Origin: a virus
IMG/VR virus record: IMGVR_UViG_3300035701_004465
Coordinates: 1 to 35,759 of that record
DNA: 35,759 bases
Strand: one strand, 5' to 3'
Under the pieces are notes generated by a model that was given only the letters and a program-made list of their open reading frames with translations, did not search any database and was not told the DNA's origin. Shown piece after piece: positions 19,688 to 35,759 of the stretch. The position numbers and the translations under genes were made by a program. The first letter of the stretch is position 1; the number at the start of each line of letters is the position of its first letter.

Positions 19688-19693
19688 AAGAAC

Positions 19694-20385: not shown

Positions 20386-20397
20386 GAGCGACTCCTT

Positions 20398-20879: not shown

Positions 20880-20929
20880 ATTTCATCTTCGGCGATGATC
20901 CGCGCCGTGTCAAGCCCCCCCGTTAGCAG

Positions 20930-21178: not shown

Positions 21179-21205
21179 TGATCGTCCTCCTTTAGTGTCT
21201 TCACC

Positions 21206-23582: not shown

Positions 23583-23611
23583 TTGACGACAGTACATCTT
23601 GGGGGTATGCT
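23583..23611 (+). promoter_or_regulatory. Possible sigma-70 promoter in the gene-free region
   Basis: TTGACG (23583-23588), 17 bases, TATGCT (23606-23611). Five of six -35 and four of six -10 bases agree with consensus. Nothing is coded downstream on this strand, but structured sequence begins at the predicted start point. Confidence 0.35.
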
Positions 23612-23751
23612 ACTGGCAGCGTACCGCGCGGTGTGGGATGAGGCAAGCAGCGTCAGCGCGCACTAAGGCCAGTAGACCGTAGAGTAGTCCTGACCCGCCT
23701 AAACCACTATTCCGTGGAGTAGACCTATGTGGCGTGCGTCACTGGATTACC

Positions 23752-23780
23752 ACGCATTGGGGCCGGGCAGAGCGGCCTTG
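23752..23780 (+). repeat. 29-bp direct repeat, copy 1
   Basis: Identical to 24484-24512. The unit begins ACGCATTGG and contains a stem GGCCG/CGGCC with a 7-base loop. The two copies bracket the two small minus-strand genes at 23950-24413. Confidence 0.85.
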
Positions 23781-23872
23781 CCGGAGCTTGCCGTTGCCCT
23801 GGACGCGGTGCTGCGGTTTAGGTGAGCAGTCAGGGCTCTGTAGGGCGGCTGCAGCGCACCGCCAGAGCCACT

Positions 23873-23953
23873 CTACACCCGGCGTCTATGGCTCGTCAAG
23901 TGAGGCCCAAACCTTCCTTCCTTTTTCCGCCTGCGCGGTGAGGAGAGCGTCAT
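23873..23953 (-). CDS. Possible 26-residue basic peptide
   Basis: ATG 23953 overlaps the stop of the zinc-finger gene (ATGA) and has AAGGAG 8 bases upstream. The product starts MTLSSPRRRKKEGRF and is very basic. Such coupled starts are common in this region, but the short length and lack of any family make it doubtful. Confidence 0.25.
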   Translation of the reverse strand: MTLSSPRRRKKEGRFGPHLTSHRRRV

Positions 23954-24165
23954 GGGGCTTTCTCCTTCGCCAGCCACTCCCTCAGACAGTTCATGCCGCA
24001 GAAGTAGACGGGGGCATCTAGTGCTGGCTTCACCATCACGAGCGTCACAAAACCTGATCCGTGCATGGCTTCGCACGTCAGCACCATGCGGTAATCAATC
24101 GCGTTGCTGGTCGTGGTCAAGTCTCGTCCGCAGTTGTCGCAGGTAATGACGGTTGTGCGGGGCAT
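23950..24165 (-). CDS. Small treble-clef-like zinc protein
   Basis: A 71-residue protein; ATG 24165 has AGAAGGAA upstream at 7-8 bases. An upstream in-frame ATG at 24201 has no good site. CDNCGRDL near the N-terminus and YFCGMNCLREWLAKE at the C-terminus give a C-x-x-C plus C-x-x-x-C pair, the layout of small phage zinc proteins in which the second pair starts a helix. The role is unknown, probably protein or nucleic-acid binding. The start of this gene overlaps the end of the upstream gene by 49 bases. Confidence 0.7.
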   Translation of the reverse strand: MPRTTVITCDNCGRDLTTTSNAIDYRMVLTCEAMHGSGFVTLVMVKPALDAPVYFCGMNCLREWLAKEKAP

Positions 24166-24413
24166 GTGTTTTCCTTCTTCGTTAGGTCCTTCCACGTCCA
24201 ACCCAGCAGCGCCCAGTACCAGAAGCGGCGGAACCAGTTGGGCCGACGGATCGTGGAGTCGATGGTCAGTGTTTGGCCGCCTCCTCTGGGATTGATGCGA
24301 AGTCTTGCCAGGAGTTTAGGGTATTGAATAAAGGTGAGCGTATCCGGACCAGACACGGGGGGGCCGGTGGCGTACCGGAAAGGGTCGCCGTCGGGATTGC
24401 TGTCGGGATTCAT
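24117..24413 (-). CDS. Small phage protein with RPNWF-x-R motif (copy B)
   Basis: A 98-residue protein; ATG 24413 is preceded by AAAGGAGG at a spacing of 7. Residues 57-77 contain RPNWFRRFWYWALLGWTWKD, the same motif as in the gene at 20930-21178, but the parts before it differ. After the motif it runs on 20 residues into the start of the next gene, so the real functional end may be near residue 80. The 49-base overlap in different frames is larger than elsewhere in the operon. Confidence 0.65.
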   Translation of the reverse strand: MNPDSNPDGDPFRYATGPPVSGPDTLTFIQYPKLLARLRINPRGGGQTLTIDSTIRRPNWFRRFWYWALLGWTWKDLTKKENTCPAQPSLPATTADET

Positions 24414-24483
24414 GGGCTGTCCTCCTTTCTAGGAGTTGGCTCGAACTCGCCGCACCACCAATCTAGTTGGATCGGAGGCCAAT

Positions 24484-24512
24484 ACGCATTGGGGCCGGGC
24501 AGAGCGGCCTTG
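24484..24512 (+). repeat. 29-bp direct repeat, copy 2
   Basis: Exact copy of 23752-23780. It lies between the terminator of the next upstream gene and the 24117-24413 start, so on the minus strand it is in the leader of the bracketed gene pair. Confidence 0.85.
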
Positions 24513-24517
24513 AACGC

Positions 24518-24551
24518 AAAACCCCCGGCACTCAACAAGTGACCGGGGGTT
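24518..24551 (-). terminator. Strong terminator after the 24557 gene
   Basis: On the minus strand AACCCCCGG plus CACT pairs with AGTG plus CCGGGGGTT, 5-base loop, and the stem is followed by TTGCG. It begins 6 bases after the stop of the minus-strand gene ending at 24557, so it divides the early genes from the zinc-protein pair. Confidence 0.7.
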
Positions 24552-24556
24552 GCGGG

Positions 24557-24826
24557 TCAGCGTGCTACGGGCGGGCTACGCGCCCGGAAGCCACGCGGGA
24601 TCAGGTGCGTGAATGGCTTGGCGACCAGCCGGCCCTGACTGTCGAACATAGCCAGCGTCTCCACCACGTCGCCCTGGTCGCACACGACGCACGCCCACTG
24701 CCGCCATCGGAACGCTGGCACGGCGTACAGATGCCCGGGCGATTGGGCGAGGCGCAGACACGCCAGGTGGGTCACTGCGGAGTTGCACTCACCGAGGCTT
24801 GGGAATCCGAAGCCGAAGAAGCTCAT
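24557..24826 (-). CDS. Small early-region protein, unknown
   Basis: An 89-residue protein starting at ATG 24826, which overlaps the upstream stop as ATGA. The ribosome-binding site is weak, so coupling is likely. It has four Cys, two in ACVVCDQGDVVETL, and an aromatic N-terminus (MSFFGFGFPSLGE). The C-terminus is basic. No family recognised. Confidence 0.6.
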   Translation of the reverse strand: MSFFGFGFPSLGECNSAVTHLACLRLAQSPGHLYAVPAFRWRQWACVVCDQGDVVETLAMFDSQGRLVAKPFTHLIPRGFRARSPPVAR

Positions 24827-25119
24827 GCGGTTCTCTTTCTTCCAGGCCAGTAGGTCCGGCACCAGTCTGTCGCTTCCTTGGGCCACGATTGCACGGCCAC
24901 GGCCGCAGTGTAGGTGTCGTGGCGGGCGGTCAGGTCATCCATCGCCCGCTCTAGGTCCTTGCGTCTGCCGAGGTCCTTGGTCAGTCGCATCTCGCGATAT
25001 GCCGCCTTGAGCTGCGCCTCTACCGCGGATTGACACTGCCGGAGCTTTCGCAACGGCCAGCCGGCGAGCCGTTTGACGAAGACGTCGAAATCGGATCGTG
25101 ATACGTGAGTCGGTTGCAT
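24823..25119 (-). CDS. Small helical protein, unknown
   Basis: A 98-residue protein; ATG 25119 has AAGGAG six bases upstream. The product is almost wholly helical and charged (RQCQSAVEAQLKAAYREMRL, RRKDLERAMDDLTARHD), with Trp/Cys near the end. It may form a coiled-coil dimer. Four bases separate the end of the preceding gene from this start. Confidence 0.65.
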   Translation of the reverse strand: MQPTHVSRSDFDVFVKRLAGWPLRKLRQCQSAVEAQLKAAYREMRLTKDLGRRKDLERAMDDLTARHDTYTAAVAVQSWPKEATDWCRTYWPGRKRTA

Positions 25120-25122
25120 GGT

Positions 25123-25353
25123 TCACTCCTTCCGGTTTGCCTTAGCAACAGCATCGCGCGCTTGTTCGAGATGTGCGCGATAGATTGCCATGCTGGGTTC
25201 GGTGGAGGCCGCCTCCACCAGAAAACGCAATGACTTCAACAGGTCGAGCGCAACAGCATGCGCGGAACAATAGACCAGTTCGTAGCCCCCGTAAGGGGTT
25301 TCCGTCGCACGGCAACCACAGTCCATTTTGATAAGCACGCGCCCAGTCTTCAT
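25123..25353 (-). CDS. Small phage protein of the YC-x-x-H-A type with helical tail
   Basis: A 76-residue protein. I choose ATG 25353, with GAGGTG upstream and an ATGA overlap with the tiny gene before it, over an upstream in-frame start. It has MDCGCRATE and YCSAHAVALDLLKSLRFLVE, then a short loop and AHLEQARDAVAKANRKE. This pattern, Cys/His cluster, L-L-x-x-L helix, variable loop and a closing A-x-x-A-I-A-K-A helix, is very common in small phage proteins of unknown role. Confidence 0.7.
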   Translation of the reverse strand: MKTGRVLIKMDCGCRATETPYGGYELVYCSAHAVALDLLKSLRFLVEAASTEPSMAIYRAHLEQARDAVAKANRKE

Positions 25354-25445
25354 GCGGTCACCTCTTCGCAGACGGACCTGGGCGCGTCCCAAGCTGCCAG
25401 GTCGTATTCCGGCCGCTTCTCTTCTGGTTTGGTTTTGGTCGTCAT
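25350..25445 (-). CDS. 31-residue small protein
   Basis: ATG 25445 is preceded by AAGGAG at 8 bases and reads MTTKTKPEEKRPEYDL, then AAWDAPRSVCEEVTA, ending in TGA that overlaps the next start (ATGA). Spacing, site and coupling all match the neighbouring genes, which is better support than for most peptides this short. It is hydrophilic and probably cytoplasmic. Unknown function. Confidence 0.5.
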   Translation of the reverse strand: MTTKTKPEEKRPEYDLAAWDAPRSVCEEVTA

Positions 25446-25521
25446 GGTTTCTGCTCCTTGCTAAGGTGTGTTCTCCCGCACCAATTCCAACGGTTCATCG
25501 CTCACGCTCCCTTCTCGGGTT

Positions 25522-25569
25522 GGCCCTCGGCCTCCCGGCATCACCGGGCTGCGTTTCGGCCCGAGGGCC
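25522..25569 (-). promoter_or_regulatory. Nested inverted repeat between early genes
   Basis: GGCCCTCGG (25522-25530) is exactly complementary to CCGAGGGCC (25561-25569), and CCCGG-CATCA-CCGGG (25534-25548) lies inside. It sits between the small gene ending at 25580 and the start at 25445. No T-tract, so a processing or stabilising element is likelier than a terminator. Confidence 0.5.
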
Positions 25570-25579
25570 TCTGTGCCCC

Positions 25580-25840
25580 TCAGTCCCCTTCACGACAGTC
25601 CAAACAAAACTCGCCGGGTTGCCTGAGCAACGCACGGGCCTTCGGCAAACTTGTTGCGGTCCCGATCTGTCCGTGCTCGCAGCAGACAACCGCGTATCGC
25701 GTGGCGTCGCCTGTCCCAAGGTCACAGGTGTCGATCCCCTGCTGCATGGCGTCGTAGATCACCACCCATTCACGATTGAGCGAGGAACGTCGGCTGGCAA
25801 TGTAGCCGGCCTCGTTATTATGCGGTTTGCGAATGCTCAC
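25580..25840 (-). CDS. Small phage Cys/His protein, unknown
   Basis: An 86-residue protein starting at GTG 25840 with AGGAG 7 bases upstream. The core VVIYDAMQQGI, then RYAVVCCEHGQIGTA, SLPKARALLRQP and EFCLDCREGD, has a C-x-x-H plus C-x-x-C layout that would bind zinc. It matches a small-protein type seen in phages (V-V-C-x-x-H-G ... A-R ... P-x-x-x-C-x-x-C). Function unknown. Confidence 0.65.
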   Translation of the reverse strand: MSIRKPHNNEAGYIASRRSSLNREWVVIYDAMQQGIDTCDLGTGDATRYAVVCCEHGQIGTATSLPKARALLRQPGEFCLDCREGD

Positions 25841-25869
25841 TTGGTTTCTCCTTGCTTGCCCCTGTCAGT

Positions 25870-25906
25870 CCCCGCGCCGGCTCCGACGCCGGACGGCTCC
25901 GCGGGG
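25870..25906 (-). promoter_or_regulatory. Inverted repeat after the 25914 gene
   Basis: CCCCGCG (25870-25876) pairs with CGCGGGG (25900-25906), with CCGG/CCGG inside. It fills most of the gap between two minus-strand genes. Lacks a T-run. Confidence 0.45.
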
Positions 25907-25913
25907 ATGATCG

Positions 25914-26633
25914 TTACTCGGCGGCCTCCTCGATCCCGCAAATCTCCTTCCACGCCTTGCCCACGCCTTGCGAGTCGTCTACGGCAATCCAGTAGCAGGT
26001 AAAGCGGTTGGCGTACTGGTCGCTGCCGGTCGCCCATCGAACCCTCTGATCAAGGTAGAAGTTGTCCTTCGGACTGATCTTCGTCTCAGTCACCCGCAAC
26101 AACTTGCCTTTGCCAAACTGCCTCGGCCCGTCCACACTGACGGAAACGGGATAAGACGCGGGCGACAGGATGCACTTGACGCGGACCACCAAGTCGCCGC
26201 ACTTGGTGTACCACTCAACGGATTGCTCCTCGCCTCCGGCGTTGTAACCCGGGGCCACGTCCAGCAGCACACCCCACACCTGCTCAGTGTCTTCGGCCAT
26301 TGTCTGCTCATCGGACATGGCCGTGTCTGGGCGGAAGTTGGTGCAACCATCTTTTCTCTTCCAGAGCGGCAAGGGAGGCAACTTGTCCAGCAGCCGGGAC
26401 ACGTCCTCCATCGTGCATCGGTCGTCGATTGCGCCGTACCTGGGGAACGCTTGGCCGATGGTCGCGCGGGCCACCGAGCCGTACAGGTTGTAGGCGTGCA
26501 GGGAGGAAACCTGCACGTCCGGGGGCCACACCTTGGCCACCGTCTCCAGGGTGCGCAGTTCCTTGCGCTTTGACTCCGCGTCCCTTCGGATCGCTTGTTT
26601 TTCAGTCGCCAGCAATTCAGACATACTTTGCAT
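25914..26633 (-). CDS. Early-region protein of 239 residues, unknown
   Basis: The largest gene of the early cluster. ATG 26633 has GAGGTG six bases upstream. Residues 1-35 are a charged helix (MSELLATEKQAIRRDAESKR), the middle has a Cys at about 97, and the second half is beta-rich with VEWYTKCGDLVVRVKC. No nuclease, ATPase or helix-turn-helix motif was seen. Being early and conserved in frame, it may be a DNA-metabolism or host-takeover protein, but that is a guess. Confidence 0.6.
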   Translation of the reverse strand: MQSMSELLATEKQAIRRDAESKRKELRTLETVAKVWPPDVQVSSLHAYNLYGSVARATIGQAFPRYGAIDDRCTMEDVSRLLDKLPPLPLWKRKDGCTNFRPDTAMSDEQTMAEDTEQVWGVLLDVAPGYNAGGEEQSVEWYTKCGDLVVRVKCILSPASYPVSVSVDGPRQFGKGKLLRVTETKISPKDNFYLDQRVRWATGSDQYANRFTCYWIAVDDSQGVGKAWKEICGIEEAAE

Positions 26634-26757
26634 CGTACACCTCTGCCGACTTTTTCGCCCTGGCTCCGGGCGACTGGATTCATGGGCACCAGCAGGCCCT
26701 CTTTCAGTGCCACCGCGGGGTTCCCCGTCGCGTGGTGCGGCGGGGTGCTGCGGGGTG

Positions 26758-26943
26758 TCAGGCGTTATGCCAAGAGTAATCGGCCCGTTGAAATCGTGTT
26801 ATACCGATTGCCACCAGAGCATCCATCGCTTCTTGCTCTGTCGGCCAACAACGAGAGGTCAGTCCCCGCGTAAACCCGGACTGATAGGGTACGCATAACT
26901 CTGTCGGTACGCTGCCAACAGGGATGTTCATCGCTCGACTCAT
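26758..26943 (-). CDS. Small early protein, unknown
   Basis: A 61-residue protein; ATG 26943 has GGGGAG 9-10 bases upstream. Two Cys and an aromatic C-terminus (FQRADYSWHNA). Its downstream spacer (26690-26757) contains GC-rich inverted sequences around GGGGTTCCCC. No family recognised. Confidence 0.5.
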   Translation of the reverse strand: MSRAMNIPVGSVPTELCVPYQSGFTRGLTSRCWPTEQEAMDALVAIGITRFQRADYSWHNA

Positions 26944-26962
26944 TGTCTTTTCTCCCCAAAGG

Positions 26963-27049
26963 CCGCGCGGCGGGCTCTTCCGCAACCGACTCAGAGTGTA
27001 ACCGATCCGGTCCGCGGGCCGGGTGATGAGCCCGGCGCCCGCCGCGCGG
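26963..27049 (-). promoter_or_regulatory. 13-bp perfect inverted repeat in the spacer of the first early genes
   Basis: CCGCGCGGCGGGC (26963-26975) is exactly complementary to GCCCGCCGCGCGG (27037-27049), and CCGGG/CCCGG (27019-27035) lies inside. It covers the whole gap between the 27063 gene end and the 26943 start. Such a stem would cap or protect the mRNA of the first gene. Confidence 0.5.
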
Positions 27050-27062
27050 GAGACTCATCTGT

Positions 27063-27614
27063 CTATTGCTGCCGTCTCGCATCCTTGCGAATCTGAACAA
27101 GATCGCGCGCAACGTCCATCCGGCTCGTCTGCTCGTTGATCCGGATCGTCCATCCGTGCGTTGCCCAACTGAATCCGCCGTGATCTACGTTGTGCTGTCG
27201 CTCGTCGGTCATGGGCACGTCGTGATCGCTGACGCGGACCCGGCAACTGCCCACAGAGTAGTACGCGCTCCCGCTGCCGGTCCGCGTTTCGCGCGTCAAG
27301 CCGATCCGGCGGAGCCAACGGAACGTCCATTGTCTGAGCTGTTCGACAGGATCCGCGGCCCGGGCCGCAGCAGAACGCCGCGAAGCCTCGCGCCGCCGGG
27401 CGGCTTCTCTCTCAGCGATGAGTGCCAGCCGTCGTGCGACGTTTTCCGGGCGACATGCCTGGCCATGCGCCGCATCCCTTGCCGCATTCCGGAGGCGTTT
27501 GCGATCAGGCGTGCCGGCCGCGATGATAGCCGGCTGAAACTGCGACTCGAACGACGCTAACTCCACGTCGATTTCGGCCGCGATCCGCGTCGTCTTCATC
27601 GTTTCCCTGGCCAT
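27063..27614 (-). CDS. First gene of the minus-strand early operon, unknown
   Basis: A 183-residue protein; ATG 27614 has a perfect AAGGAGGAATAAA before it, the strongest site of the operon. Residues 15-95 are Ala/Arg-rich helix (ERREAARRREASRR-like), with a C-terminal half of mixed structure ending in a basic helix. The high Arg content suggests nucleic-acid binding. It is the gene nearest the divergent control region, so it would be among the first expressed after derepression. No family recognised. Confidence 0.65.
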   Translation of the reverse strand: MARETMKTTRIAAEIDVELASFESQFQPAIIAAGTPDRKRLRNAARDAAHGQACRPENVARRLALIAEREAARRREASRRSAAARAADPVEQLRQWTFRWLRRIGLTRETRTGSGSAYYSVGSCRVRVSDHDVPMTDERQHNVDHGGFSWATHGWTIRINEQTSRMDVARDLVQIRKDARRQQ

Positions 27615-27735
27615 TTTATTCCTCCTTCAGGTACGGGCCCCGTGGCCCGGGTCCCCTACGCTGCTACAAGATGCCTCTCCAGCAGTTCCGCAAAAAGCTT
27701 GGTCGCAACTCGCGGCCGGTCGGCTCGACTCCTAT

Positions 27736-27763
27736 ATTATGTCCAACCGGCAACAAATCGCAA
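27736..27763 (-). promoter_or_regulatory. Candidate promoter for the minus-strand early operon
   Basis: On the minus strand TTGCGA (27763-27758), 16 bases, CATAAT (27741-27736). Four of six and five of six consensus bases. The -35 box overlaps a CGCAAC/GTTGCG half-site, so a bound repressor would block it. About 120 bases upstream of the first early gene. Confidence 0.4.
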
Positions 27764-27780
27764 CCGAAAATCCGCATGCG

Positions 27781-27795
27781 CGCAACGTGGTTGCG
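27781..27795. promoter_or_regulatory. Operator candidate, palindrome CGCAAC-GTG-GTTGCG
   Basis: A perfect 6-3-6 inverted repeat. Single CGCAAC half-sites occur at 27704-27709 and 27759-27764, spaced 55 and 22 bases apart. The set is well placed for a repressor binding between the divergent promoters. Confidence 0.5.
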
Positions 27796-27813
27796 GACAA
27801 CGAGTTGCATTCC

Positions 27814-27833
27814 ATCCGGCCGGATTCAATCCG
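27814..27833. promoter_or_regulatory. Overlapping palindromes ATCCGGCCGGAT and CGGATT-C-AATCCG
   Basis: Two perfect palindromes share the bases 27821-27825, giving three ATCCG-type half-sites in 20 bases. A second, different operator type in the control region is possible. Confidence 0.45.
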
Positions 27834-28174
27834 ACTGGACACTTAGTATTTCGGGAAGCCAAAAGTGGGGGTTAATGTAAACCGTTGCAGGATAAGACGT
27901 TACGCAAACAGACTCACGGACAACCCGGCCCGTGCTGCGTCCAGCAGTCAGCCGACAGCCGTTGCCTCAGCCTAAGGGGACCCCAGGGCGAGGGACCCCT
28001 GCCCTAGGAGAACCCCTCGAGAGGAGCAAGCCGCTTTCACCCAACAGGGCTTTCCGGCGCGATTTTCGTCTCCCCTTTAGGCGCTTTTTCGGCGCACTCC
28101 AAATCGCCAAAGACTCCAAAGGCCAAATCCCCCAACACCCCCCTACACCCCCCTGCTGACTTCCGACAATCGGC

Positions 28175-28202
28175 TTGACCTCTATAGCCAAACGGCTACA
28201 AT
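28175..28202 (+). promoter_or_regulatory. Promoter of the regulator/integrase operon
   Basis: TTGACC (28175-28180), 16 bases, TACAAT (28197-28202): five of six bases match in both boxes. Transcription would start near 28209, directly at or before ATG 28210, and 33 bases before the better start ATG 28243. Confidence 0.6.
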
Positions 28203-28242
28203 CAAAGGCATGGAGCAAGCAGCCGGACAAAAGGAACGAGGG

Positions 28243-28506
28243 ATGAAACGAAAACCTTACGTGAAGCCTTGCGGGCGGACGGCGACGGAACCCGACACCA
28301 CAACCCGGGCCGGTCACCTCGGTGCCATCATACGGACCACGCGGATCGCAGTCGGCTTAAGCGTCATGGCCGCGGCGGCACAGGCCGGACTCAGACCACT
28401 CGACTGGCACCGCTGGGAACGTGGCGCACGGATGCCTCGGGCCGATCTTCTGGTCAAGATTGCGGCCGTGCTGGGAACCAGAGTCGAAAAACTCTTTGCC
28501 GCGTGA
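28243..28506 (+). CDS. Helix-turn-helix (Cro/CI, XRE-type) regulator
   Basis: An 87-residue protein from ATG 28243, which has AAGGAACGAGG upstream. An in-frame ATG at 28210 has no site but could start a leaderless product with 11 more residues. Residues 33-85 fit an XRE helix-turn-helix: AIIRTTRIAVGLSVMAAAAQ, LRPLDWHRWERGARMPRADL, then the closing helix VKIAAVLGTRVEKLF. The recognition-helix part W-H-R-W-E-R-G is typical. It probably binds the palindromes of the upstream control region and decides between the divergent operons. The integrase follows 20 bases later, so both belong to one lysogeny operon. Repressor versus Cro-like role cannot be told. Confidence 0.75.
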   Translation: MKRKPYVKPCGRTATEPDTTTRAGHLGAIIRTTRIAVGLSVMAAAAQAGLRPLDWHRWERGARMPRADLLVKIAAVLGTRVEKLFAA

Positions 28507-28526
28507 AGGCGAAAGAAGGCCAAACC

Positions 28527-29651
28527 ATGAAACCTGCCAAGCCCTACCCCGACTTCCCGCTCTTCGCCCATGCCTCGGGCGTCTGGGCCAAGAAGATCCG
28601 GAGCAAGACGCACTACTTCGGCCCATGGGACGATCCCTCGGCGGCTTTGCGGCGATACCTCGCTGAGCAAGATACTCTCTATGCTTACGGCCGTTGCAGG
28701 CACCCGAAAGTGGCAAACGTCACTATCCAGCAACTCATTGACCGATTTCTGGAAGCCAAAGGGCGGCTGCTGAACAGCAACGAGTTGGCCCCGCGCAGCC
28801 TCATGGACTACCGCCACGCCTGCACGCGCATTGCGGAACAATTCGGAGCCGTCCGTCAGATCGGCACCTTGGAACCCGAAGAGTTTGAGCGGTTCCGCGC
28901 CAAGCTGGCCAACGGCTGGGGTCCGGTCACTTTAGGAGCGGCACTCCAGAAGATCCGCACCGTTTTCAAGTATGCGTTTGATGCCGGCCTGATTGAACGA
29001 CCCGTGCGTTTTGGTGTCTGCTTCAAGTCGCCATCGAAGAGGGTGCTGCGGCTGAACAAGAAGAACGGCGAGAACCGAATGTTTGAGGCAGAGGAAGTCC
29101 GCCGGATGCTGGAGACTGCGGGTGTGCAACTGCGAGCGATGATCCTTTTGGGCGTCAACTGCGGCTTCGGCAATGCCGACTGCGCCACGTTGCCGATAGA
29201 GGCCCTGGACCTGGACGGAGGCTGGATCAACTACCACCGGCCCAAGACGGGAATCGACCGGCGATGTCCCTTGTGGCCCGAGACGGTCGCGGCGTTGCGG
29301 AAGTGGCTTGCCCGGCGGCCAAGGTCGCGGAACCCCGAGATTGCCAGGTTGGTCTTCGTCACCAGAAACAAAACAAGTTGGAGCAAGGGTACGACGGACA
29401 ACCCCGTCGCCAAGGCGTTTGCCAAGGTGCTGGGGAAGGTGGAACTTGTCCGCAAGGGCCGAGGTTTCTATGCCCTGCGGCACACCTTTGAGACGATTGC
29501 CGGCGAGGCCCTCGACCAGATTGCCGTGGACGCCATCATGGGGCACGTCCGGGAGGACATGGCGACCGTGTACCGCGAGCGGATCAACGATGAGCGACTC
29601 CGTTACGTAGCGGAACGTGTAAGGACATGGCTGTTTGTGACCGCAGCATAA
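28527..29651 (+). CDS. int: Tyrosine recombinase / phage integrase (first of two), altered catalytic set
   Basis: A 374-residue protein. I place the start at ATG 28527 (GAAGG 9 bases upstream) rather than any earlier frame position. The N-terminal SAM-like arm/core domain occupies about 65-170, the catalytic domain 185-360. Seen: RPKTG (Lys240), YALRHTF (Arg318, His319), IMGH (His340) and VYRER (Tyr349, nucleophile). The position of the first catalytic Arg is occupied by the sequence NCGFGNAD, without Arg, and the H of the H-x-x-R box is Tyr315. This variant set resembles integrases I associate with planctomycete genomes. It follows the regulator gene by 20 bases. Integration and excision of the phage is the expected role. 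Confidence 0.85.
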   Translation: MKPAKPYPDFPLFAHASGVWAKKIRSKTHYFGPWDDPSAALRRYLAEQDTLYAYGRCRHPKVANVTIQQLIDRFLEAKGRLLNSNELAPRSLMDYRHACTRIAEQFGAVRQIGTLEPEEFERFRAKLANGWGPVTLGAALQKIRTVFKYAFDAGLIERPVRFGVCFKSPSKRVLRLNKKNGENRMFEAEEVRRMLETAGVQLRAMILLGVNCGFGNADCATLPIEALDLDGGWINYHRPKTGIDRRCPLWPETVAALRKWLARRPRSRNPEIARLVFVTRNKTSWSKGTTDNPVAKAFAKVLGKVELVRKGRGFYALRHTFETIAGEALDQIAVDAIMGHVREDMATVYRERINDERLRYVAERVRTWLFVTAA

Positions 29652-29660
29652 GGCACCACA

Positions 29661-29684
29661 AGCCCCGGACTCGGGGCTTTTCTT
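29661..29684 (+). terminator. Terminator after the integrase
   Basis: AGCCCCG-GACT-CGGGGCT (29661-29678), a perfect 7-bp stem with tetraloop, followed by TTTCTTT. It stands between the integrase and a convergent minus-strand ORF and may serve both. Confidence 0.85.
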
Positions 29685-29688
29685 TGCG

Positions 29689-29708
29689 CGCTACTCGAAT
29701 GAGTAGCG
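29689..29708. repeat. 20-bp perfect inverted repeat CGCTACTC-GAAT-GAGTAGCG
   Basis: Eight-base arms with a 4-base centre, just after the integrase terminator. Position and symmetry fit a recombinase core-type or regulatory site, but it could also be a second hairpin; its right arm contains the stop of the minus-strand ORF. Confidence 0.6.
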
Positions 29709-29915
29709 TCGCTCGTGAATCGCCGTTGCCAGCCGGGCCTGTGCGGACCCGGCAGCGGACAGTTCGGCGTTGATGTGCTGTCGGATTTGGAGACGTGATT
29801 TGGCAAGCTGCCGTCGATGTCGTTTTTTTCGGCGGGGGCGCAATTGGGAGAAAGCAGCGTCAGCCTCTTGCTGAGCCTCAAGACTCCCATTCCATCGCAG
29901 TCTTGCTTCTTTCAC
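29691..29915 (-). CDS. Possible small basic protein convergent with the integrase
   Basis: A 74-residue frame from GTG 29915, which has TTGGAG 8 bases upstream; the ATG at 29921 is too close to that site. The product is very basic (RPRRKKRHRRQLAKSRLQIR) with a helical tail. The terminator lies between it and the integrase, consistent with convergent genes. It might bind DNA near the attachment site. Could be spurious. Confidence 0.35.
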   Translation of the reverse strand: MKEARLRWNGSLEAQQEADAAFSQLRPRRKKRHRRQLAKSRLQIRQHINAELSAAGSAQARLATAIHERRYSFE

Positions 29916-29954
29916 CTTCATCACTCCAAGAAAGCGCTTTTTAACACCAGGCAA

Positions 29955-30494
29955 CGTAAGAGAACTCTAGCGCGACCCCCCCAAACCCCCCCTAGCAGTC
30001 CTATTGGGCCAGGATGGTTTCGGGTGGTGTCGCTGTGCGGACCCCGCCGAAGCTGATACCACGTTACCGTCAGCTACAAGCCCACGGACGTGTGAATCGG
30101 CGTGTGCGCTTCGCGGCCGAGCTTCTTTAACGCGGCTTTCTCGGCTTTGTCCCCGGCATTTACTCCGAGGCAACCCCTCCGCGCCAAACCGTTTGCCCGG
30201 GGATTGGCCCAGGGCAGGACGCTTGGGAAGACCAACGCCGAAATGGAGAGGCCACTTGCCAGATCAGGCTCAGAAGAGTATTCTGGGATGATGCTCGACA
30301 TGGGGCACGTCCATCGTCGGGTGTTGGGAAGCCCGGTTTCGGCCGGGCTTCTTTCATTAACACCAGTCAACGTGCCTCCATTCTCTCCGCGGCCTTGCCG
30401 CCTGTCAAGCCCCTCTGCCCCCAACGCCCCGCTGCAACTCCCCAGCCGCTCTAGGAATCGCGCGCGGGCTCCGGTCGGGGTTTTCCTGCGACTG
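29955..30494. other. 540-bp stretch without a credible gene
   Basis: Open frames here lack ribosome-binding sites and show no family pattern. It contains C-runs near 29975-29995, one strong terminator at 30328-30355, and a T-rich end before the tRNA region. A sequence reading MMLDMGHVHRRV upstream of the terminator recalls the M-G-H-V box of the integrase, so a decayed recombinase end is conceivable but not shown. An attachment site would fit here, between integrase and tRNA genes. Confidence 0.4.
30328..30355 (+). terminator. Strong intrinsic terminator
   Basis: GAAGCCCGG-TTTCGG-CCGGGCTTC (30328-30351), a perfect 9-bp stem followed by TTTC. No gene ends just before it, so it may insulate the tRNA region or end a lost gene. 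Confidence 0.75.
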
Positions 30495-30533
30495 GCACCT
30501 CTAGCTCAATTGGATAGAGCATCGGCTTAAGGA
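30495..30533 (+). pseudogene. Truncated tRNA (5' half)
   Basis: It begins like a tRNA (GCACCTC, then TA, then the D-arm GCTC-AATTGGATA-GAGC) but ends in the anticodon loop region. No matching anticodon-stem 3' side, T-arm or acceptor end follows. Twenty bases around the D-arm (from TAGCTC to GAGCA) are identical to the tRNA-Arg 70 bases later. A decayed duplicate or half of a site split by integration. Confidence 0.6.
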
Positions 30534-30562
30534 TGGGTAAGCTAGGGATTATGGCGAATGTT

Positions 30563-30636
30563 GCGCCCGTAGCTCAATTGGATAGAGCACCAGATTGCGG
30601 ATCTGGAGGCTGGGGGCTCGAATCCCCCCGGGCGTA
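30563..30636 (+). tRNA. tRNA-Arg, anticodon GCG
   Basis: A complete cloverleaf. Acceptor GCGCCCG/CGGGCGT (first pair G-U), D-arm GCTC/GAGC, anticodon stem CCAGA/TCTGG with loop TTGCGGA giving anticodon GCG (codon CGC), T-arm GGGGG/CCCCC with loop CTCGAAT, discriminator A. The CCA end is not encoded. CGC is a common codon in this GC-rich phage, so it may serve late protein synthesis. It also makes a natural attachment target. Confidence 0.9.
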
Positions 30637-30686
30637 CTTTTGACAGGTGTGGTTGACAGAAAGGCGGGAGTCGGTGAACTGCCCGC

Positions 30687-30715
30687 TTGACACGTTCTAT
30701 TGTCGGCGTTAATAT
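30687..30715 (+). promoter_or_regulatory. Near-consensus promoter giving a leaderless mRNA
   Basis: TTGACA (30687-30692), exactly 17 bases, TAATAT (30710-30715). The next gene's ATG is at 30722, seven bases after the -10 box, where transcription should begin, so the message would have no leader and no Shine-Dalgarno. Confidence 0.75.
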
Positions 30716-30721
30716 AGGGGA

Positions 30722-30946
30722 ATGATCGTGCCATCGACTGAATTCCCGTTTTTCTCAGTCCCAGAGGCAGCAATCGAGCTCGGGATGACTGAAGGCCGAA
30801 TCCGGCAACTGCTTCTCGCCGGGGAATTGAAGGGCCACAAGCTCGGCATCGACGAGAAAAACCAGTGGGCTATCCCTTGCGCTGAGGTCAAAAAGGCCAA
30901 GGGCAATCGCCCAACTACAGGCCGGCCAAGGATTTCCGACCGCTGA
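30722..30946 (+). CDS. Excisionase / MerR-like helix-turn-helix protein
   Basis: A 74-residue protein. Residues 9-60 fit the small winged HTH of excisionases and DNA-binding HTH_17 proteins: FFSVPEAAIELGMTEGRIRQ, then LLLAGELKGHKLG (wing start), and a W-A-I-P strand with a final basic tail (GNRPTTGRPR). The ATG lies at the predicted transcription start of a strong promoter. As an excisionase it could direct one of the two integrases, or regulate the following genes. Confidence 0.75.
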   Translation: MIVPSTEFPFFSVPEAAIELGMTEGRIRQLLLAGELKGHKLGIDEKNQWAIPCAEVKKAKGNRPTTGRPRISDR

Positions 30947-31031
30947 AAAAAATCCGACGAGAAAATCGCCGGACTCCTATTGACTTCTTTTAACGTGGGC
31001 AATAGAACTGGGGCAGAATGGAGTCACCGGA

Positions 31032-31421
31032 ATGAAACCAAGACCAAGCGATGAACCACGGACCTATTTCATCTACGCCTTGGTTGATCCACGGACCAAA
31101 CTCATCGCCTACGTTGGCTGCTCCGAACAACTTAATCGGAGGATACGGTCGCACCAAGTAGGTCGATTGCCCTCGACTCAACCACGACTTGGAAAATGGT
31201 TGGCTGAACTGCGCAACTCAGGTCTGGAGCCGCAATCCTGCCTGGTGGCTGAGGTGAAATTTCATCGCCTCGTGTGGCACGCACGAAGAACAGCACTAGA
31301 TATCGAGAAGGAAGTGATTGGCATACTCGCTCGTTCTGAGCCACCTTTGATGAACATCATTGGTAATCGACGATCCGGATGGGTTCATTGGACGGCAAAA
31401 CACAAAAGTAAAAGCCAGTAA
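31032..31421 (+). CDS. GIY-YIG nuclease-domain protein
   Basis: A 129-residue protein; GGAG lies 8 bases before ATG 31032, and TTGACT-17-TAGAAC may be its promoter. Residues 12-42 give the GIY-YIG signature: YFIYALVDP (Y-x-x-Y), YVGCSEQLNRRIRSHQ (Y-V-G, then catalytic Arg and His), with an Asn-Ile region near the end (LMNIIGN). These domains cut DNA, often as homing endonucleases or in repair and defence. The 96 bases at its 3' end are exactly duplicated at 32121-32216. Single-domain proteins this short in phages are often homing-type. Confidence 0.8.
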   Translation: MKPRPSDEPRTYFIYALVDPRTKLIAYVGCSEQLNRRIRSHQVGRLPSTQPRLGKWLAELRNSGLEPQSCLVAEVKFHRLVWHARRTALDIEKEVIGILARSEPPLMNIIGNRRSGWVHWTAKHKSKSQ

Positions 31422-31431
31422 AACCACCGGC
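31336..31431 (+). repeat. 96-bp exact direct repeat, copy 1
   Basis: From CTGAGCCACC to ACCACCGGC, identical to 32121-32216. It covers the last 25 or so codons of the GIY-YIG gene and 10 bases of spacer. Confidence 0.95.
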
Positions 31432-31489
31432 ACCTCTTCAGGCTGACCTCTTTGGCCGCCTGCTTGGGTGCTCCAAGCGGGAGATTCCC

Positions 31490-31978
31490 ATGAGCTTAAC
31501 CAGTTACAGAACACAGTACGAGGCCCTGGCCATCAAGAAGGTTCTCACCGGCAACGAAGCTCTGAAGGCAGTCGAGCAAAACGGGTACGTCCTCCGGTAC
31601 GTGAAGGAACAGACCGAGGCCGTGTGTCTGAAGGCAGTCGAGCAAGACGGCGACGCCCTCCGGTACGTGAAGGAACAGACCGAGGCCGTGTGTCTGAAGG
31701 CAGTCGAGCAAAACGGGTACGTCCTCCAGTACGTGAAGGAACAGACCGAGGCCGTGTGTCTGAAGGCAGTCGAGCAAAACGGGTACGCCCTCCAGTACGT
31801 GAAGGAACAGACCGAGGCCGTGTGTCTGAAGGCAGTCGAGCAAAACGGCGACGCCCTCCAGTACGTGAAGGAACAGACCGAGGCCGTGTATCTGAAGGCA
31901 GTCGAGCAAAACGGCGACGCCCTCCAGTACGTTGAGGAATGGCTGTTCATAAGGAGCGTGACGGATGCCGAACTCTGA
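31490..31978 (+). CDS. DUF4116-type tandem-repeat protein
   Basis: A 162-residue protein with a start ATG 31490 after GGGAGATTCCC. After a 22-residue N-terminus it is made of six 22-residue units, each with the pattern L-K-A-V-E-Q-x-G-x-x-L-x-Y-V-K-E-Q-T-E-A-V-C. This is the DUF4116 repeat pattern known from phages, giant viruses and some bacteria, function unknown. The DNA units are nearly identical (see repeat), with changes centred on the codons for N/D-G-Y/D-V/A. Alpha-helical pairs stacked into a solenoid are the likely structure, fit for protein binding. The end overlaps the next small gene by 14 bases. Confidence 0.8.
   Translation: MSLTSYRTQYEALAIKKVLTGNEALKAVEQNGYVLRYVKEQTEAVCLKAVEQDGDALRYVKEQTEAVCLKAVEQNGYVLQYVKEQTEAVCLKAVEQNGYALQYVKEQTEAVCLKAVEQNGDALQYVKEQTEAVYLKAVEQNGDALQYVEEWLFIRSVTDAEL
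31562..31937 (+). repeat. Six tandem 66-bp repeats
   Basis: Units start at 31562, 31628, 31694, 31760, 31826 and 31892, each beginning CTGAAGGCAGTCGAGCA. Synonymous positions are conserved, so amplification or gene conversion is recent. Lack of stops in the unit leaves other frames open on both strands. Confidence 0.95.
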
Positions 31979-32135
31979 CCTCAATGTGCTGGCCTTGGTC
32001 AAGGGACCGGAAAACTACGTCTTCCTCTATGACGACATCAGTCGGGCCGAGGCCCTGCGGCTCTTGGGCCGCTTCGCGTCGAATCCCGATCTGAGCTTCA
32101 CCTGGTATGACGCGGCGTTACTGAGCCACCTTTGA
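31965..32135 (+). CDS. 56-residue small protein with recombined end
   Basis: ATG 31965 has AAGGAG 8 bases upstream. The protein reads MPNSDLNVLALVKGPENYVF, LYDDISRAEALRLLGRFA, then SNPDLSFTWYDAALLSHL. The YVFLYDD-x-S-R-A-E-x-L-R-x-L-G-R-F-A-x-N-P-x-L-S-F-T-W-Y-D-A-A pattern is one I associate with small phage/planctomycete proteins that usually continue past WYDAA. Here the last codons (LSHL and stop) come from the 96-bp repeat copy, so the C-terminus has been replaced by recombination. A short, mixed alpha/beta fold is likely. Confidence 0.65.
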   Translation: MPNSDLNVLALVKGPENYVFLYDDISRAEALRLLGRFASNPDLSFTWYDAALLSHL

Positions 32136-32216
32136 TGAACATCATTGGTAATCGACGATCCGGATGGGTTCATTGGACGGCAAAACACAAAAGTAAAAGC
32201 CAGTAAAACCACCGGC
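32121..32216 (+). repeat. 96-bp exact direct repeat, copy 2
   Basis: Identical to 31336-31431. Here it supplies the stop of the 31965 gene and then spacer. The 689 bases between the copies hold the DUF4116 gene and the small gene. Confidence 0.95.
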
Positions 32217-32266
32217 GTCTTGGCCGCCTCTTCGGCCGACCGACGCCCTGACTGCGGAGGCGTCCC

Positions 32267-33187
32267 GTGCCAAAGAAAAAAGCGAAGGAATGGTTTGGCT
32301 GGCATTTTCTGCCTGAAGACCGGCGCACCCGCTGGGGCGGAAAGCTGGTGCGCAAAGGGACGGTCATTCGGGCCAGTGGCCCACTCGTACTCTGTGAAAA
32401 CGGTGTCCATGCCTCCGCAAAGGCGTTGGATGCCCTCGCCTACGCACCGGGCCCTGTTGTGTGTTGGGTGCGGTTGGGTGGCAAAATCCTTCACGGCGAG
32501 GACAAATCCGTCGCGCGTGAGCGGAAGTGTCTGGCGATTGCGGACGCTTGGGCAGTGCTGAGACTGTTTGCGTGCTGGTGCGCGGAACGAGCGCTCCGGG
32601 CGGAGCGCACGGCAGGACGGGAGCCGGATAAGCGCAGTTGGGAGGCCATCAGAGTTGCGCGGCAGTTTGCTAGGAGTAAAGCGACTGCGACAGAATTGGC
32701 GGCGGCTTACGCGGCGGCTGACGTGGCTCGCGTGGCGGCTGGCGCGGCGGCTGACGTGGCTCGCGTGGCGGCTTACGTGGCGGCTGACGTGGCGGCTTAC
32801 GTGGCTCGCGCGGCGGCTGACGTGGCTGACGCATCGGCTGACGTGGCTCGCGTGGCGGCTTACGTGGCGGCTGACGTGGCGGCTGACGTGGCTGGCGCGG
32901 CGGCTGACGTGGCTGACGCATCGGCTTACGTGGCTCGCGCGGCGGCTGACGTGGCGGCTTACGTGGCTCGCGCGGCGGCTTACGCGGCGGCTGACGTGGC
33001 TTGCGTGGCGGCTGGCGCGGCGGCTGACGTGGCTCGCGTGGCGGCTTACGCGGCGGCTGACGTGGCTCGCGTGGCGGCTGGCGCGGCGGCTGACGTGGCT
33101 CGCGTGGCGGCTTACGCGGCGGCCAGGCTTGCACAGAATCGCAAATTGACCGCGATGTTGCGAAAACTATTGAAAGTGAGAACCTGA
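32267..33187 (+). CDS. Mobile-element protein with DUF7666-like head and alanine-rich 11-residue repeats
   Basis: A 306-residue protein starting at GTG 32267 with GGAGG six bases upstream. Residues 1-110 resemble the small domain found at the start of many phage and plasmid proteins of unknown role: GWHFLPEDRRTRWGGK, PLVLCENGVHASAKALDALA, YAPGPVVCWVRLGGKI. I liken it to DUF7666; that name is from memory. Residues 144-290 are an Ala-rich repeat with an 11-residue period (AAADVARVAAY and close variants such as AAADVADASAY). Such hendecads form a long right-handed helix or coiled coil. The tail (LAQNRKLTAMLRKLLKVRT) is basic. It ends one base inside the next gene. Confidence 0.75.
   Translation: MPKKKAKEWFGWHFLPEDRRTRWGGKLVRKGTVIRASGPLVLCENGVHASAKALDALAYAPGPVVCWVRLGGKILHGEDKSVARERKCLAIADAWAVLRLFACWCAERALRAERTAGREPDKRSWEAIRVARQFARSKATATELAAAYAAADVARVAAGAAADVARVAAYVAADVAAYVARAAADVADASADVARVAAYVAADVAADVAGAAADVADASAYVARAAADVAAYVARAAAYAAADVACVAAGAAADVARVAAYAAADVARVAAGAAADVARVAAYAAARLAQNRKLTAMLRKLLKVRT
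32701..33123 (+). repeat. 33-bp-based tandem repeats coding Ala-rich hendecads
   Basis: Units built from GCGGCTGACGTGGCTCGCG-type blocks repeat with lengths of 33 bp or mixed sub-blocks of 12 and 21 bp. The array reads without stops in several frames on both strands, which creates long false ORFs there. Confidence 0.9.
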
Positions 33188-33510
33188 TGTCCGCCAACAT
33201 TGCAAAAGCGGCGCTGACAGAATTGGCACGTCGCCACAGAATCATGCTTAAAGCGTGCCACGCGACCCTGAAATGGTTCAACGCTTGGCGGGACGAGGGA
33301 TTGTTCACGCCAGAAGATGACGCAGTTTTCGACGGATTGAAGGCCGCAGTTGCGACTGGAGAATGGGGCGACAACCACTCCCAATCTTTCGCGGGGCCTG
33401 TGGTAGCGCCTACCGAACCGACGACAGAGTGCGACCATCCGTGGCACGACAATCCCGCCCTCATCTTTCCCTGTCCGAGCTGTGGTGTGGGCCCCCAGGT
33501 GGAGGACTGA
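33187..33510 (+). CDS. Small protein with C-terminal Cys/His cluster
   Basis: A 107-residue protein, start ATG 33187 overlapping the previous stop by one base (TGATG). The first half is helical (AKAALTELARRHRIMLKACH), followed by a helix with W-F-N-A-W-R-D-E. The end CDHPWHDNPALIFPCPSCG gives four Cys and two His that could bind zinc. Unknown function. Confidence 0.6.
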   Translation: MSANIAKAALTELARRHRIMLKACHATLKWFNAWRDEGLFTPEDDAVFDGLKAAVATGEWGDNHSQSFAGPVVAPTEPTTECDHPWHDNPALIFPCPSCGVGPQVED

Positions 33511-33513
33511 CCC

Positions 33514-33702
33514 ATGACGGAACCCCAACTCAGAACGCTGCGCGAACTGGCCGAGAGGCCGAAATACATCAGTCCGTGGTATCAACCCATCCAGGCCCTA
33601 GTGGTCGCTGGATTTGTACGCGAACGTCCGGGCGTAAGTGGCTGGTATCACATCACCAACTCTGGGCGGAACTATCTCGCGGAACTGGACAAGAAAGACT
33701 AA
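33514..33702 (+). CDS. Small winged-helix-like protein
   Basis: A 62-residue protein; GGAGG lies 8 bases before ATG 33514. The pattern EPQLRTLRELAE, helix YQPIQALVVAGFVRER, then wing PGVSGWYHITNSGRNYL fits a minimal winged helix with a recognition helix and wing. Such small proteins in phages often regulate neighbouring genes. Followed at once by a terminator, so it ends the transcription unit. Confidence 0.65.
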   Translation: MTEPQLRTLRELAERPKYISPWYQPIQALVVAGFVRERPGVSGWYHITNSGRNYLAELDKKD

Positions 33703-33725
33703 CCGCGCCGGTTGGCGCGGATTTA
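33703..33725 (+). terminator. Terminator after the winged-helix gene
   Basis: CCGCGCC-GGTT-GGCGCGG (33703-33720), a perfect 7-bp stem with tetraloop, then ATTTAA. The stem starts right at the stop codon. Confidence 0.75.
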
Positions 33726-33817
33726 AGGAACGCGACGGATGCGCATTCACACGGACGCAAGAAACCTTAGTGCTACACTTGAGGTGAATCCCTCTGGTGT
33801 GACTCAGGGTCGCGCTT

Positions 33818-34699
33818 GTGCTCACGACATCCGGCCTCTCGCTTCTGGATTTCCTCCAGACGGTCTATGTCCCGTCGCGGTTGGAGTACGCGCCGGGGTC
33901 GGTCCTGCAAATGCAGGTCAGCATCCGGGTCTTGGAGCGCTGGGCGGGTCGGGTGTTGACGCTGGGGGACCTGTCCGAGGACCTGCTGCGTCGGTTCCTG
34001 TCGGACTACCACCGCACGCGATCATGGGGAACCGTGAACGCGAAACGCTGCCACCTTCTGGCGCTGTGGCGGTGTGCATGGGAAGAGGATTACCTGCCGT
34101 CGCCCCCCAAGTCGCGGAAGGTCCGCAAGGCCAGACCCCGGCCAACCATTCCCGAAGCGTGGACGACGGCGGAGGTCGGCCGGATTCTCCAGGCGGCCCG
34201 GGAGGCGACCGGGGACATCGACGGGATTCCGGCGGCAGACTACTTCGAGTCGATATTTCTCGTCGCTTACGATTCTGGAGAGCGCCGTGGGGCCATCATG
34301 GCCACGACGCCAGCCGACCTCTCGTTAGCTGGCGGCTGGGTGCAGTTCCGCCGGACGAAGACGGGCCTGCCGCGGCTCTGCCCGCTGGCACCCGATACTG
34401 TGGCGGCCTGCCGACGGGTCTACGATTCCTGCCGGGCCCTGGTCTGGCCCTGGCCGTTCAGCCGCGAGCATTTCGACCACCGGCTCAAGGTGCTCTTGCG
34501 TCGGGCCGGCGTGGCGTTTGGGAGAGGGCGCGGGGGGTTGATGCACAAGTTTCGCAGGACCGCCGGGACGCTGGTGGAAGCGGCGGGGGGCGACGGAGCC
34601 CGACACCTCGGCAACACGCGGGCGGTGTTTCTGACGAACTACCGCGACCCGCGATTCTTCACGAGCGATCTCTGCCGGTTGCCTCGGCCGGTTTTCTGA
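33818..34699 (+). CDS. Second tyrosine recombinase
   Basis: A 293-residue protein starting at GTG 33818, with a weak AGGG upstream. N-terminal core-binding helices lie in 10-100, the catalytic domain in 115-275. Seen: SGERRGAI (Arg156/157), RRTKTG (Lys181), HKFRR (His243 and Arg246), HLGN (Asn266 at the usual second His/Trp site) and TNYRDP (Tyr275, nucleophile). So four of the five usual residues are in place, unlike the first integrase. Its partner DNA site is unknown; it may serve a mobile cassette of the accessory region. Confidence 0.8.
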   Translation: MLTTSGLSLLDFLQTVYVPSRLEYAPGSVLQMQVSIRVLERWAGRVLTLGDLSEDLLRRFLSDYHRTRSWGTVNAKRCHLLALWRCAWEEDYLPSPPKSRKVRKARPRPTIPEAWTTAEVGRILQAAREATGDIDGIPAADYFESIFLVAYDSGERRGAIMATTPADLSLAGGWVQFRRTKTGLPRLCPLAPDTVAACRRVYDSCRALVWPWPFSREHFDHRLKVLLRRAGVAFGRGRGGLMHKFRRTAGTLVEAAGGDGARHLGNTRAVFLTNYRDPRFFTSDLCRLPRPVF

Positions 34700-34760
34700 A
34701 CGTGAGCGCGTGGCGGCGGCGTGGTACTGACACGCCTCTCTCGGCGCGGAGCCTGGCCTC

Positions 34761-34954
34761 ACGAGGGCGCGCCGAAGGAAACGAGCCCTCGTCGTCGATG
34801 CAGACGTGCATCGTCGCAAAGGGCCAACGGTCAATCAGGAAGCCGGTAGATACAAACCGGCCCACCGCGCGCTCTTTTCCAACCATAGCCGGGCGGTTGC
34901 GGGATGGTGCCCTCCATGACATCCCGTCAGTTGTCCCACGACGGCCGCCCGGCT
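34761..34954 (+). ncRNA. Four tandem perfect hairpins in the leader of csrA (candidate CsrA-responsive RNA)
   Basis: ACGAGGGC/GCCCTCGT (34761-34792, 16-base loop holding GAAGGAAAC), CGATGCA-GACG-TGCATCG (34796-34813), GCCGGT/ACCGGC (34842-34861, 8-base loop, with CAGGAA just before it), and AGCCGGGCGG/CCGCCCGGCT (34887-34954) with GGGATG/CATCCC inside, followed by GGTTTTC. Several GGA motifs, the core of CsrA sites, lie in loops or between stems. It has the form of a structured 5' leader or a sponge-like RNA. The last stem may also be the terminator of the integrase message. No gene lies in 34700-34987. Confidence 0.45.
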
Positions 34955-34987
34955 GGTTTTCACCATGAAATGGGAAAGGAGTGACTC

Positions 34988-35182
34988 ATGCTCGTTCTAA
35001 CTCGCAAGCGCGACGAGAAAATCCAGATAGGTCGTTACATCACCGTCTCAGTACAGCGCATCGCGTCTGGCCACGTCCGGTTGGGCATTGAGGCCCCGCC
35101 GGGCGTCCAGATCATGCGCGGTGAGTTGGTGACGCGGGCAGTGGAGCCTCAGCAAATCTCAGATACTAAGGAGGAAGGATGA
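34988..35182 (+). CDS. csrA: CsrA/RsmA carbon storage regulator
   Basis: A 64-residue protein; GAAAGGAG lies before ATG 34988. MLVLTRKRDEKIQIG at the N-terminus (Leu4, Arg6) and IMRGEL with Arg44 are the two RNA-binding strands of CsrA dimers, at the same numbering as in E. coli. CsrA binds GGA-containing hairpins in mRNA leaders and blocks or stabilises messages. Its presence here, ahead of methylase and virion genes and behind a hairpin-rich leader with GGA motifs, suggests control of host or phage messages. The stop overlaps the next start (ATGA), so it is an operon gene, not a stray host copy. Confidence 0.9.
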   Translation: MLVLTRKRDEKIQIGRYITVSVQRIASGHVRLGIEAPPGVQIMRGELVTRAVEPQQISDTKEEG

Positions 35183-35427
35183 TGGCGAAGGTGCTCGACG
35201 AATTCGCTTTTGTTTACCCAAAGAATGCCGCAAAGTATCGGTGGGACGAATGGTTGGATGGTCGCATTTGGCAACTCGCGGCAGGTACGGATTTCACCAT
35301 TGCGATTGGACAATTCCGAAGTGCGGCCTTTCGGGCTGCACAAGTACGCAGATTACATCTCCGCACCCGACAGGTTGACGGCGACGTAGTGATTCAAGCC
35401 TACTATCCCCCGCCAGGTGAACCATGA
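35179..35427 (+). CDS. Small phage protein, unknown
   Basis: An 82-residue protein; ATG 35179 overlaps the csrA stop and has AAGGAGG upstream. Pattern: aromatic N-terminus with YRWDEWLDGRIWQL, then TDFTIAIGQFRSAAFRAAQ, and a strand end VIQAYYPPPGEP. The F-R-S-x-x-x-A-A type is one I have seen in small phage and mobile-element proteins. It ends in an ATGA overlap with the next gene. Confidence 0.7.
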   Translation: MMAKVLDEFAFVYPKNAAKYRWDEWLDGRIWQLAAGTDFTIAIGQFRSAAFRAAQVRRLHLRTRQVDGDVVIQAYYPPPGEP

Positions 35428-35714
35428 CCTTTAATGGGGGTGATACGGTCGAGTGGACGAGTCAGTCGGCTGGCACCATCAAGACGAAGCGGGGAGAAAT
35501 CTGGGCCGTGGTACCGGCCGGAACTGACCCCCGTGCCCTCATCCCGCCAGGAGCGGCCGAGAGCGGCGGGTTTGGGTCGATTGGCGGCTGCCTCAGTTCG
35601 CGGCCTCACGAGTCGTATCTCGTGAGCGTCGGTGGAGTGCTGTACTGGCCGCGCGTCTGTCAAGTGCGGAAGGTTGAGCCCCCGCCAGGTGAAGCCGCCC
35701 ACGGGCTAGGCTAG
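35424..35714 (+). CDS. Small phage protein with SRPHESYLV motif
   Basis: A 96-residue protein starting in an ATGA overlap. It begins FNGGDTVEW (small barrel-type start) with G-x-V-x-x-V-V-P, and contains SRPHESYLVSVGGVLYWPRV, a pattern typical of small phage proteins near methylase or replication genes. A DNA- or RNA-binding barrel is possible. The methyltransferase start lies 10 bases after its stop. Confidence 0.7.
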   Translation: MTFNGGDTVEWTSQSAGTIKTKRGEIWAVVPAGTDPRALIPPGAAESGGFGSIGGCLSSRPHESYLVSVGGVLYWPRVCQVRKVEPPPGEAAHGLG

Positions 35715-35724
35715 CCTGCCGCCC

Positions 35725-35759
35725 GTGCAGGTCGGGCCGGGGGTTTTGGAAATGGAGGT
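35725..35759 (+). CDS. N-terminal part of the DNA methyltransferase (continues at base 1)
   Basis: From GTG 35725 the frame reads VQVGPGVLEME and stays open to the end of the window. Joined to base 1 it continues VPAESIQCC, then the catalytic TSPPYW, exactly the usual spacing and pattern before motif IV in phage methylases (G-x-x-L-E-x-x-x-x-P-A-E-S-I-x-C). ATG 35752 is an alternative start. A small stem, GGCTAG-G-CTAGCC (35704-35716), lies before it. Confidence 0.7.
   Translation, partial: MQVGPGVLEME

Follow-up and report, generated by a model that had tools for sequence, protein, structure and literature searches.

Joining the ends of a viral contig restores the reading frame, but not the family N-terminus, of a DNA methyltransferase gene

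Do the two ends of a viral contig that opens inside one gene and closes just after another meet to form a complete phage genome? The window considered here, the whole of a 35,759-bp virus record, enters a DNA methyltransferase gene without its start, and its right end lies ~45 nt beyond the last small gene of an operon containing csrA. A sequence-only reading proposed that the ends join in frame and that the record is probably a complete circular phage genome. The question matters since a closed genome would make absences, such as those of a polymerase or a lysis gene, trustworthy and would fix the operon structure. The features referred to below are as follows.

1..808, plus strand: 5'-truncated DNA methyltransferase (PF01555, phrog_67, TSPPYW motif IV), nearest (77-84% identity) to methyltransferases of planctomycete chromosomes and of viruses
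3261..4970, plus strand: portal (phrog_21)
7711..9015, plus strand: major capsid protein (Phage_capsid_4)
10026..10910, plus strand: tail tube protein (Phage_tube_2)
21206..22675, minus strand: terminase large subunit (phrog_9)
28527..29651, plus strand: tyrosine integrase (PF00589), with the relatives found all in Planctomycetota
30563..30637, plus strand: tRNA-Arg (gcg), complete
30722..30946, plus strand: excisionase-like gene (phrog_66), right of the tRNA
31965..32135, plus strand: small conserved protein, 70% identical to a homologue in viral contig L123
33818..34699, plus strand: second tyrosine-recombinase-like gene (phrog_1)
34988..35182, plus strand: CsrA (PF02599; phrog_9500, phrog_5527)
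35179..35427, plus strand: small ORF, negative in the family search
35424..35714, plus strand: small ORF and last complete gene (phrog_11941, unknown function)
35725..35759, plus strand: last 35 bases, open frame VQVGPGVLEME, with a GTG start at 35725 and further starts at TTG 35746 and ATG 35752

When the ends are joined and translated, positions 35725-35759 followed by base 1 onward give VQVGPGVLEMEVPAESIQCCVTSPPYW. The resulting ORF (35725..808, plus strand) encodes 280 aa, has its upstream in-frame stop at TAG 35707-35709 and begins with a GTG that lies 10 nt past the TAG ending ORF 35424-35714 and is in frame with the methyltransferase entering at base 2. In this literal sense the sequence-only reading was correct on the start codon, the spacing, the residues VQVGPGVLEME and the frame. 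These eleven residues, plus a valine codon split over both ends, are all that the join adds to the protein, and PAESIQCCVTSPPYW is encoded entirely from base 2 on. The pattern x-P-A-E-S-I-x-C-C-TSPPYW, which had been offered as family resemblance produced by the join, falls within the part encoded from base 2 and is therefore silent on it.

Agreement of frame, strand and spacing had likewise been taken to support a circle. If the window is cut 20-80 nt past the end of a plus-strand gene, 67% of such cut points offer a start codon in the matching frame, and 41% offer one positioned within -20 to +40 nt of that gene end. With a chance rate of 41% at comparable cut points, frame, strand and spacing together constitute weak evidence for the join.

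We turned to the methyltransferase itself, whose domain matches (PF01555, 4.6e-42; phrog_67, 1.7e-53), together with motifs IV and I, identify it as an N6/N4 DNA methylase. It resembles the beta-class N4/N6 DNA methyltransferases of phages and Type II restriction-modification systems (PF01555; phrog_67) in its TSPPYW motif IV and DPFGGCGTTG motif I, and the whole domain is present from residue 1 of the fragment. Unlike these relatives, the window lacks the N-terminal [ILV]xxGD block, since the contig begins inside the gene; we take this lack to reflect truncation by the contig end and not a place outside PF01555/phrog_67. Another difference, relative to some restriction-modification relatives, is that a restriction gene was not found beside the methyltransferase in the window. 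The relative in viral contig L003 (76% identical) adjoins a NaeI-family restriction endonuclease gene (L003:7917-9660; PF09126, 7e-119), which suggests that the phage methyltransferase is kin to the modification enzymes of NaeI-type systems. A 50% relative adjoins XcyI.

The family N-terminus provides a direct point of comparison. From 80 viral methyltransferase loci we obtained 53 distinct N-termini, of which 44 carry G(D/N), exactly 19 residues before TSPPYW in 42 of them; most of the remainder have A/C/N-D variants. Eleven of the closest relatives were checked, nine of them copies in planctomycete genomes and two in viral contigs, L002 and L003. Apart from L193, at 50%, they are 76-84% identical, and the GD motif stands at -19 in all eleven. 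The block [ILV]xxG(D/N), defined from the relatives collected here and not a Pfam criterion, thus sits exactly 19 residues ahead of TSPPYW in most viral relatives and in 11 of the 11 closest ones checked. In the joined protein this block is absent: positions -19/-18 read V-G, and VQVGPGVLEMEV contains neither D nor N.

Quantitative scores point the same way. On a position matrix covering -22 to -10, the joined N-terminus scores -23 bits, where random window ends average -27 (p 0.31) and the family leave-one-out median is about +25 bits, although small indels bring 3 of 52 relatives down to that level or close to it when positions are fixed. An HMM gains 1.8 bits from the joined N-terminus; the family gains 17.8 bits at the median and 4.3 at the least, and 9% of ends chosen at random do equally well. 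Shortening or lengthening the join, over the range -12 to +24 bases, did not bring a convincing version of the missing N-terminus into frame. Aligning the joined 280-residue protein to its relatives, the check that the sequence-only reading had itself proposed, therefore returned an N-terminus that fails to match the family, the outcome which that reading had named as counting against it. For this gene split by the contig ends, joining restores the frame and not the family N-terminus.

A comparison at the DNA level locates the discrepancy. In the 60 nt after base 1, the identity of the window to the eleven relatives is 0.60-0.80, as among the relatives themselves. In the 36 nt before base 1, it is 0.19-0.31, the level of chance, whereas the relatives match one another there at 0.36-0.92. 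Homology to the relatives breaks exactly at the contig boundary. We considered a recombinant N-terminus, but its breakpoint would need to coincide by accident with the contig cut, and the simpler explanation is that the join is not genuine. On this simpler reading, the contig's final bases would not be what stands before base 1, and the methyltransferase has probably lost its start together with at least residues -22 to -10, a stretch of about 40 nt or longer. Positions 35725..35759 more likely represent the start of another gene or intergenic DNA, cut by the contig end, than the methyltransferase N-terminus. The last complete ORF (35424-35714) had no match in 392 planctomycete genomes, and its 47% relative in viral contig L008 precedes a DNA polymerase gene, not a methyltransferase.

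The contig ends themselves carry no mark of closure. Terminal repeats, whether direct or inverted, were not found, the ends do not overlap over 10-199 nt, and neither of them has a second copy. Long-read assemblers can trim end repeats or output circular contigs without them, so the absent repeat is not decisive on its own. The exact 34-nt join sequence had no match in viral and genome contig collections from which near records may have been left out. Circular contigs from short-read assemblers normally keep a k-mer-long end repeat, by which closed viral contigs are recognised (CheckV PMC8116208; COBRA PMC10914622). The window is of phage-genome size, like the complete viral contigs classed as 'DTR' by CheckV and IMG-VR, but it is without their direct terminal repeat, for which the CheckV threshold is ≥ 20 bp. 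The ends were also considered as cos or packaging termini, an idea set aside because the left end interrupts a gene and the terminase is >13 kb from either end. A complete circle of 35,759 bp is thus unproven: the N-terminus does not match, homology stops at base 1 and at least about 40 nt are probably missing. With closure unsupported, absences in the window are not evidence; its 35.8 kb yielded no recognisable gene for a helicase, a polymerase or lysis.

Whether the phage map places the two ends side by side is a separate matter, on which gene order in relatives bears. The viral contigs L123 and L124, which are the same phage (99.99% identical), carry on one strand a 31965-like gene, csrA, a TerS-like gene (so called because of where it lies and a weak match to an HTH), TerL, portal, capsid and tail genes. 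The planctomycete prophage G312 has csrA upstream of TerL and portal, again on the same strand. In the window, csrA would lie 3.8 kb upstream of the portal gene only if the ends are neighbours. Two independent relatives thus have csrA ahead of terminase and portal in the same orientation, which suggests that the ends are neighbours. In L143 the csrA cluster comes after the tail genes, and L002 and L003 share just the methyltransferase with the window and so offer no synteny across the join. We consider it reasonably probable that the two ends neighbour each other on the phage chromosome, with a gap between them.

Relatives of other window genes provide information about the host. The integrase has relatives in eight genomes, all of them Planctomycetota in that scan, and four of these eight also contain portal relatives. 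The integrase and portal relatives indicate that the host is probably a planctomycete, and the virion genes together with an integrase of Planctomycetota affinity fit a planctomycete temperate tailed phage. Single-sequence searches of viral contigs and phage records with portal and terminase gave no matches, and a portal alignment search found 24 relatives. Like the window, G312 and the viral contigs L118-L138, which are portal relatives, have the order portal, 5111-, 6157-, capsid, tail tube and tail genes (~25-50% identity). The terminase differs in placement: in those checked (G312, L123/L124, L127 and L135) it precedes portal and shares its strand, whereas the window has it on the minus strand, beyond the tail genes. 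The TerL upstream of portal is a homologue of the window's in L127 and L135 and another TerL in G312 and L123.

Across the whole window several palindromes are strongly under-represented (GTCGAC, 0 versus 18 expected; GACGTC, 1 versus 16; GCGC, 181 versus 274), while GCCGGC is not depleted (46 versus 52 expected). This depletion may reflect host restriction pressure.

The region to the right of the tRNA is phage DNA, whether the circle closes or not, because it shares an unbroken contig with the virion genes and because its genes turn up again in viral contigs. The sequence-only reading had assigned this accessory region to the same phage by way of the join, and the assignment holds on these other grounds, namely a single contig with excisionase-like, recombinase and CsrA genes. 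Of 392 sampled genomes of Planctomycetota (the phylum of the reference genome), 47 have a homologue of the 31965-32135 gene, as do four viral contigs, each of which also has csrA. Its product matches no Pfam family and is apparently an uncharacterised planctomycete protein acquired by phages.

Several repeats were observed in and beside this region. The core of the 31965-32135 protein reads NVLALVKGxExYVFLYDD...LSFTWYDAA. In a 96-bp exact direct repeat (31336-31431 and 32121-32216), the 3'-terminal part of a GIY-YIG-like ORF (31032-31421) is duplicated at the 3' end of 31965-32135, whose product is thereby truncated relative to homologues that continue ...LSQKIRQ. A 66-bp repeat array at 31495-32005 encodes DUF4116 repeats, and an array of 9/12-bp units at 32683-33162 encodes an Ala/Val/Asp-rich repeat protein (ADVARVAAYVAADVA...). 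Just ahead of the tRNA-Arg, at 30495-30547, lies a degenerate tRNA-like copy that is 75% identical over 53 nt.

Three other accounts of the contig can be weighed against these observations. An exact closed 35,759-bp circle, whose methyltransferase would have a divergent or degenerate N-terminus read from GTG 35725, TTG 35746 or ATG 35752, draws on the correct frame and start codon and on the gene order in relatives, which fits neighbouring ends. It also draws on a weak similarity to phage phiAH14a, whose one-residue-gapped alignment to the joined N-terminus reads V.VG....M, and on the position-matrix p of about 0.06 obtained when one unknown codon is inserted at the join, which still does not restore the motif. 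The coincidence of the homology cliff with the contig boundary, a motif without D or N, the small HMM gain and the missing terminal repeat make such a circle improbable. A more specific version, in which the first strand and GD motif of the methyltransferase were replaced by an unrelated leader precisely at the contig boundary and the gene is fused to a csrA operon running into the virion genes, is very improbable.

Alternatively, the contig could be a piece of a larger phage or prophage, with ends that are not neighbours and several kilobases missing. The lack of a recognised helicase, polymerase or lysis gene fits this account, as do the larger sizes of relatives (a 41.5-kb contig, G405, and the roughly 55-kb G312 prophage) and the csrA cluster of L143, whose position after the tail genes also agrees with the unjoined order. 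However, the integrase, repressor-like and xis-like genes are all internal to the contig and flanked left and right by phage genes, which is not the layout of an integrated prophage, and csrA is upstream of portal in L123/L124 and G312; we regard this account as rather unlikely. A third account, in which the contig contains an integrated prophage and host chromosome begins to the right of tRNA-Arg (30.6-35.7 kb), draws on the complete tRNA-Arg that adjoins the integrase, on a tRNA-Arg likewise found next to a related integrase in G118, and on the presence of the 31965-like gene in host genomes. The same segment nonetheless holds xis-like, csrA (phrog_9500), phrog_11941 and recombinase genes, and csrA and the 31965-like gene lie near terminase and portal in viral contigs, so that a host origin seems extremely improbable.

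We conclude that the join is very probably coincidental and the window a linear, incomplete metagenomic contig of a temperate tailed phage that probably infects planctomycetes. The left contig end would happen to fall inside the methyltransferase gene, removing its start, and read-through from the right end into that gene would be a coincidence of the kind expected about 40% of the time. Frame continuity and a start codon over contig ends are thus weak evidence of closure, and the test to use is whether homology to relatives runs on through the boundary. The ends would be neighbours on a circular or circularly permuted form, across a gap of about 40 nt or longer. On such a map, csrA and the accessory genes would lead into the methyltransferase, portal, capsid and tail genes as one plus-strand unit. 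The sequence-only reading had proposed a continuous unit of this kind; the join lends it no support, but a broader csrA-to-tail plus-strand unit is plausible from the gene order of L123/L124 and G312.
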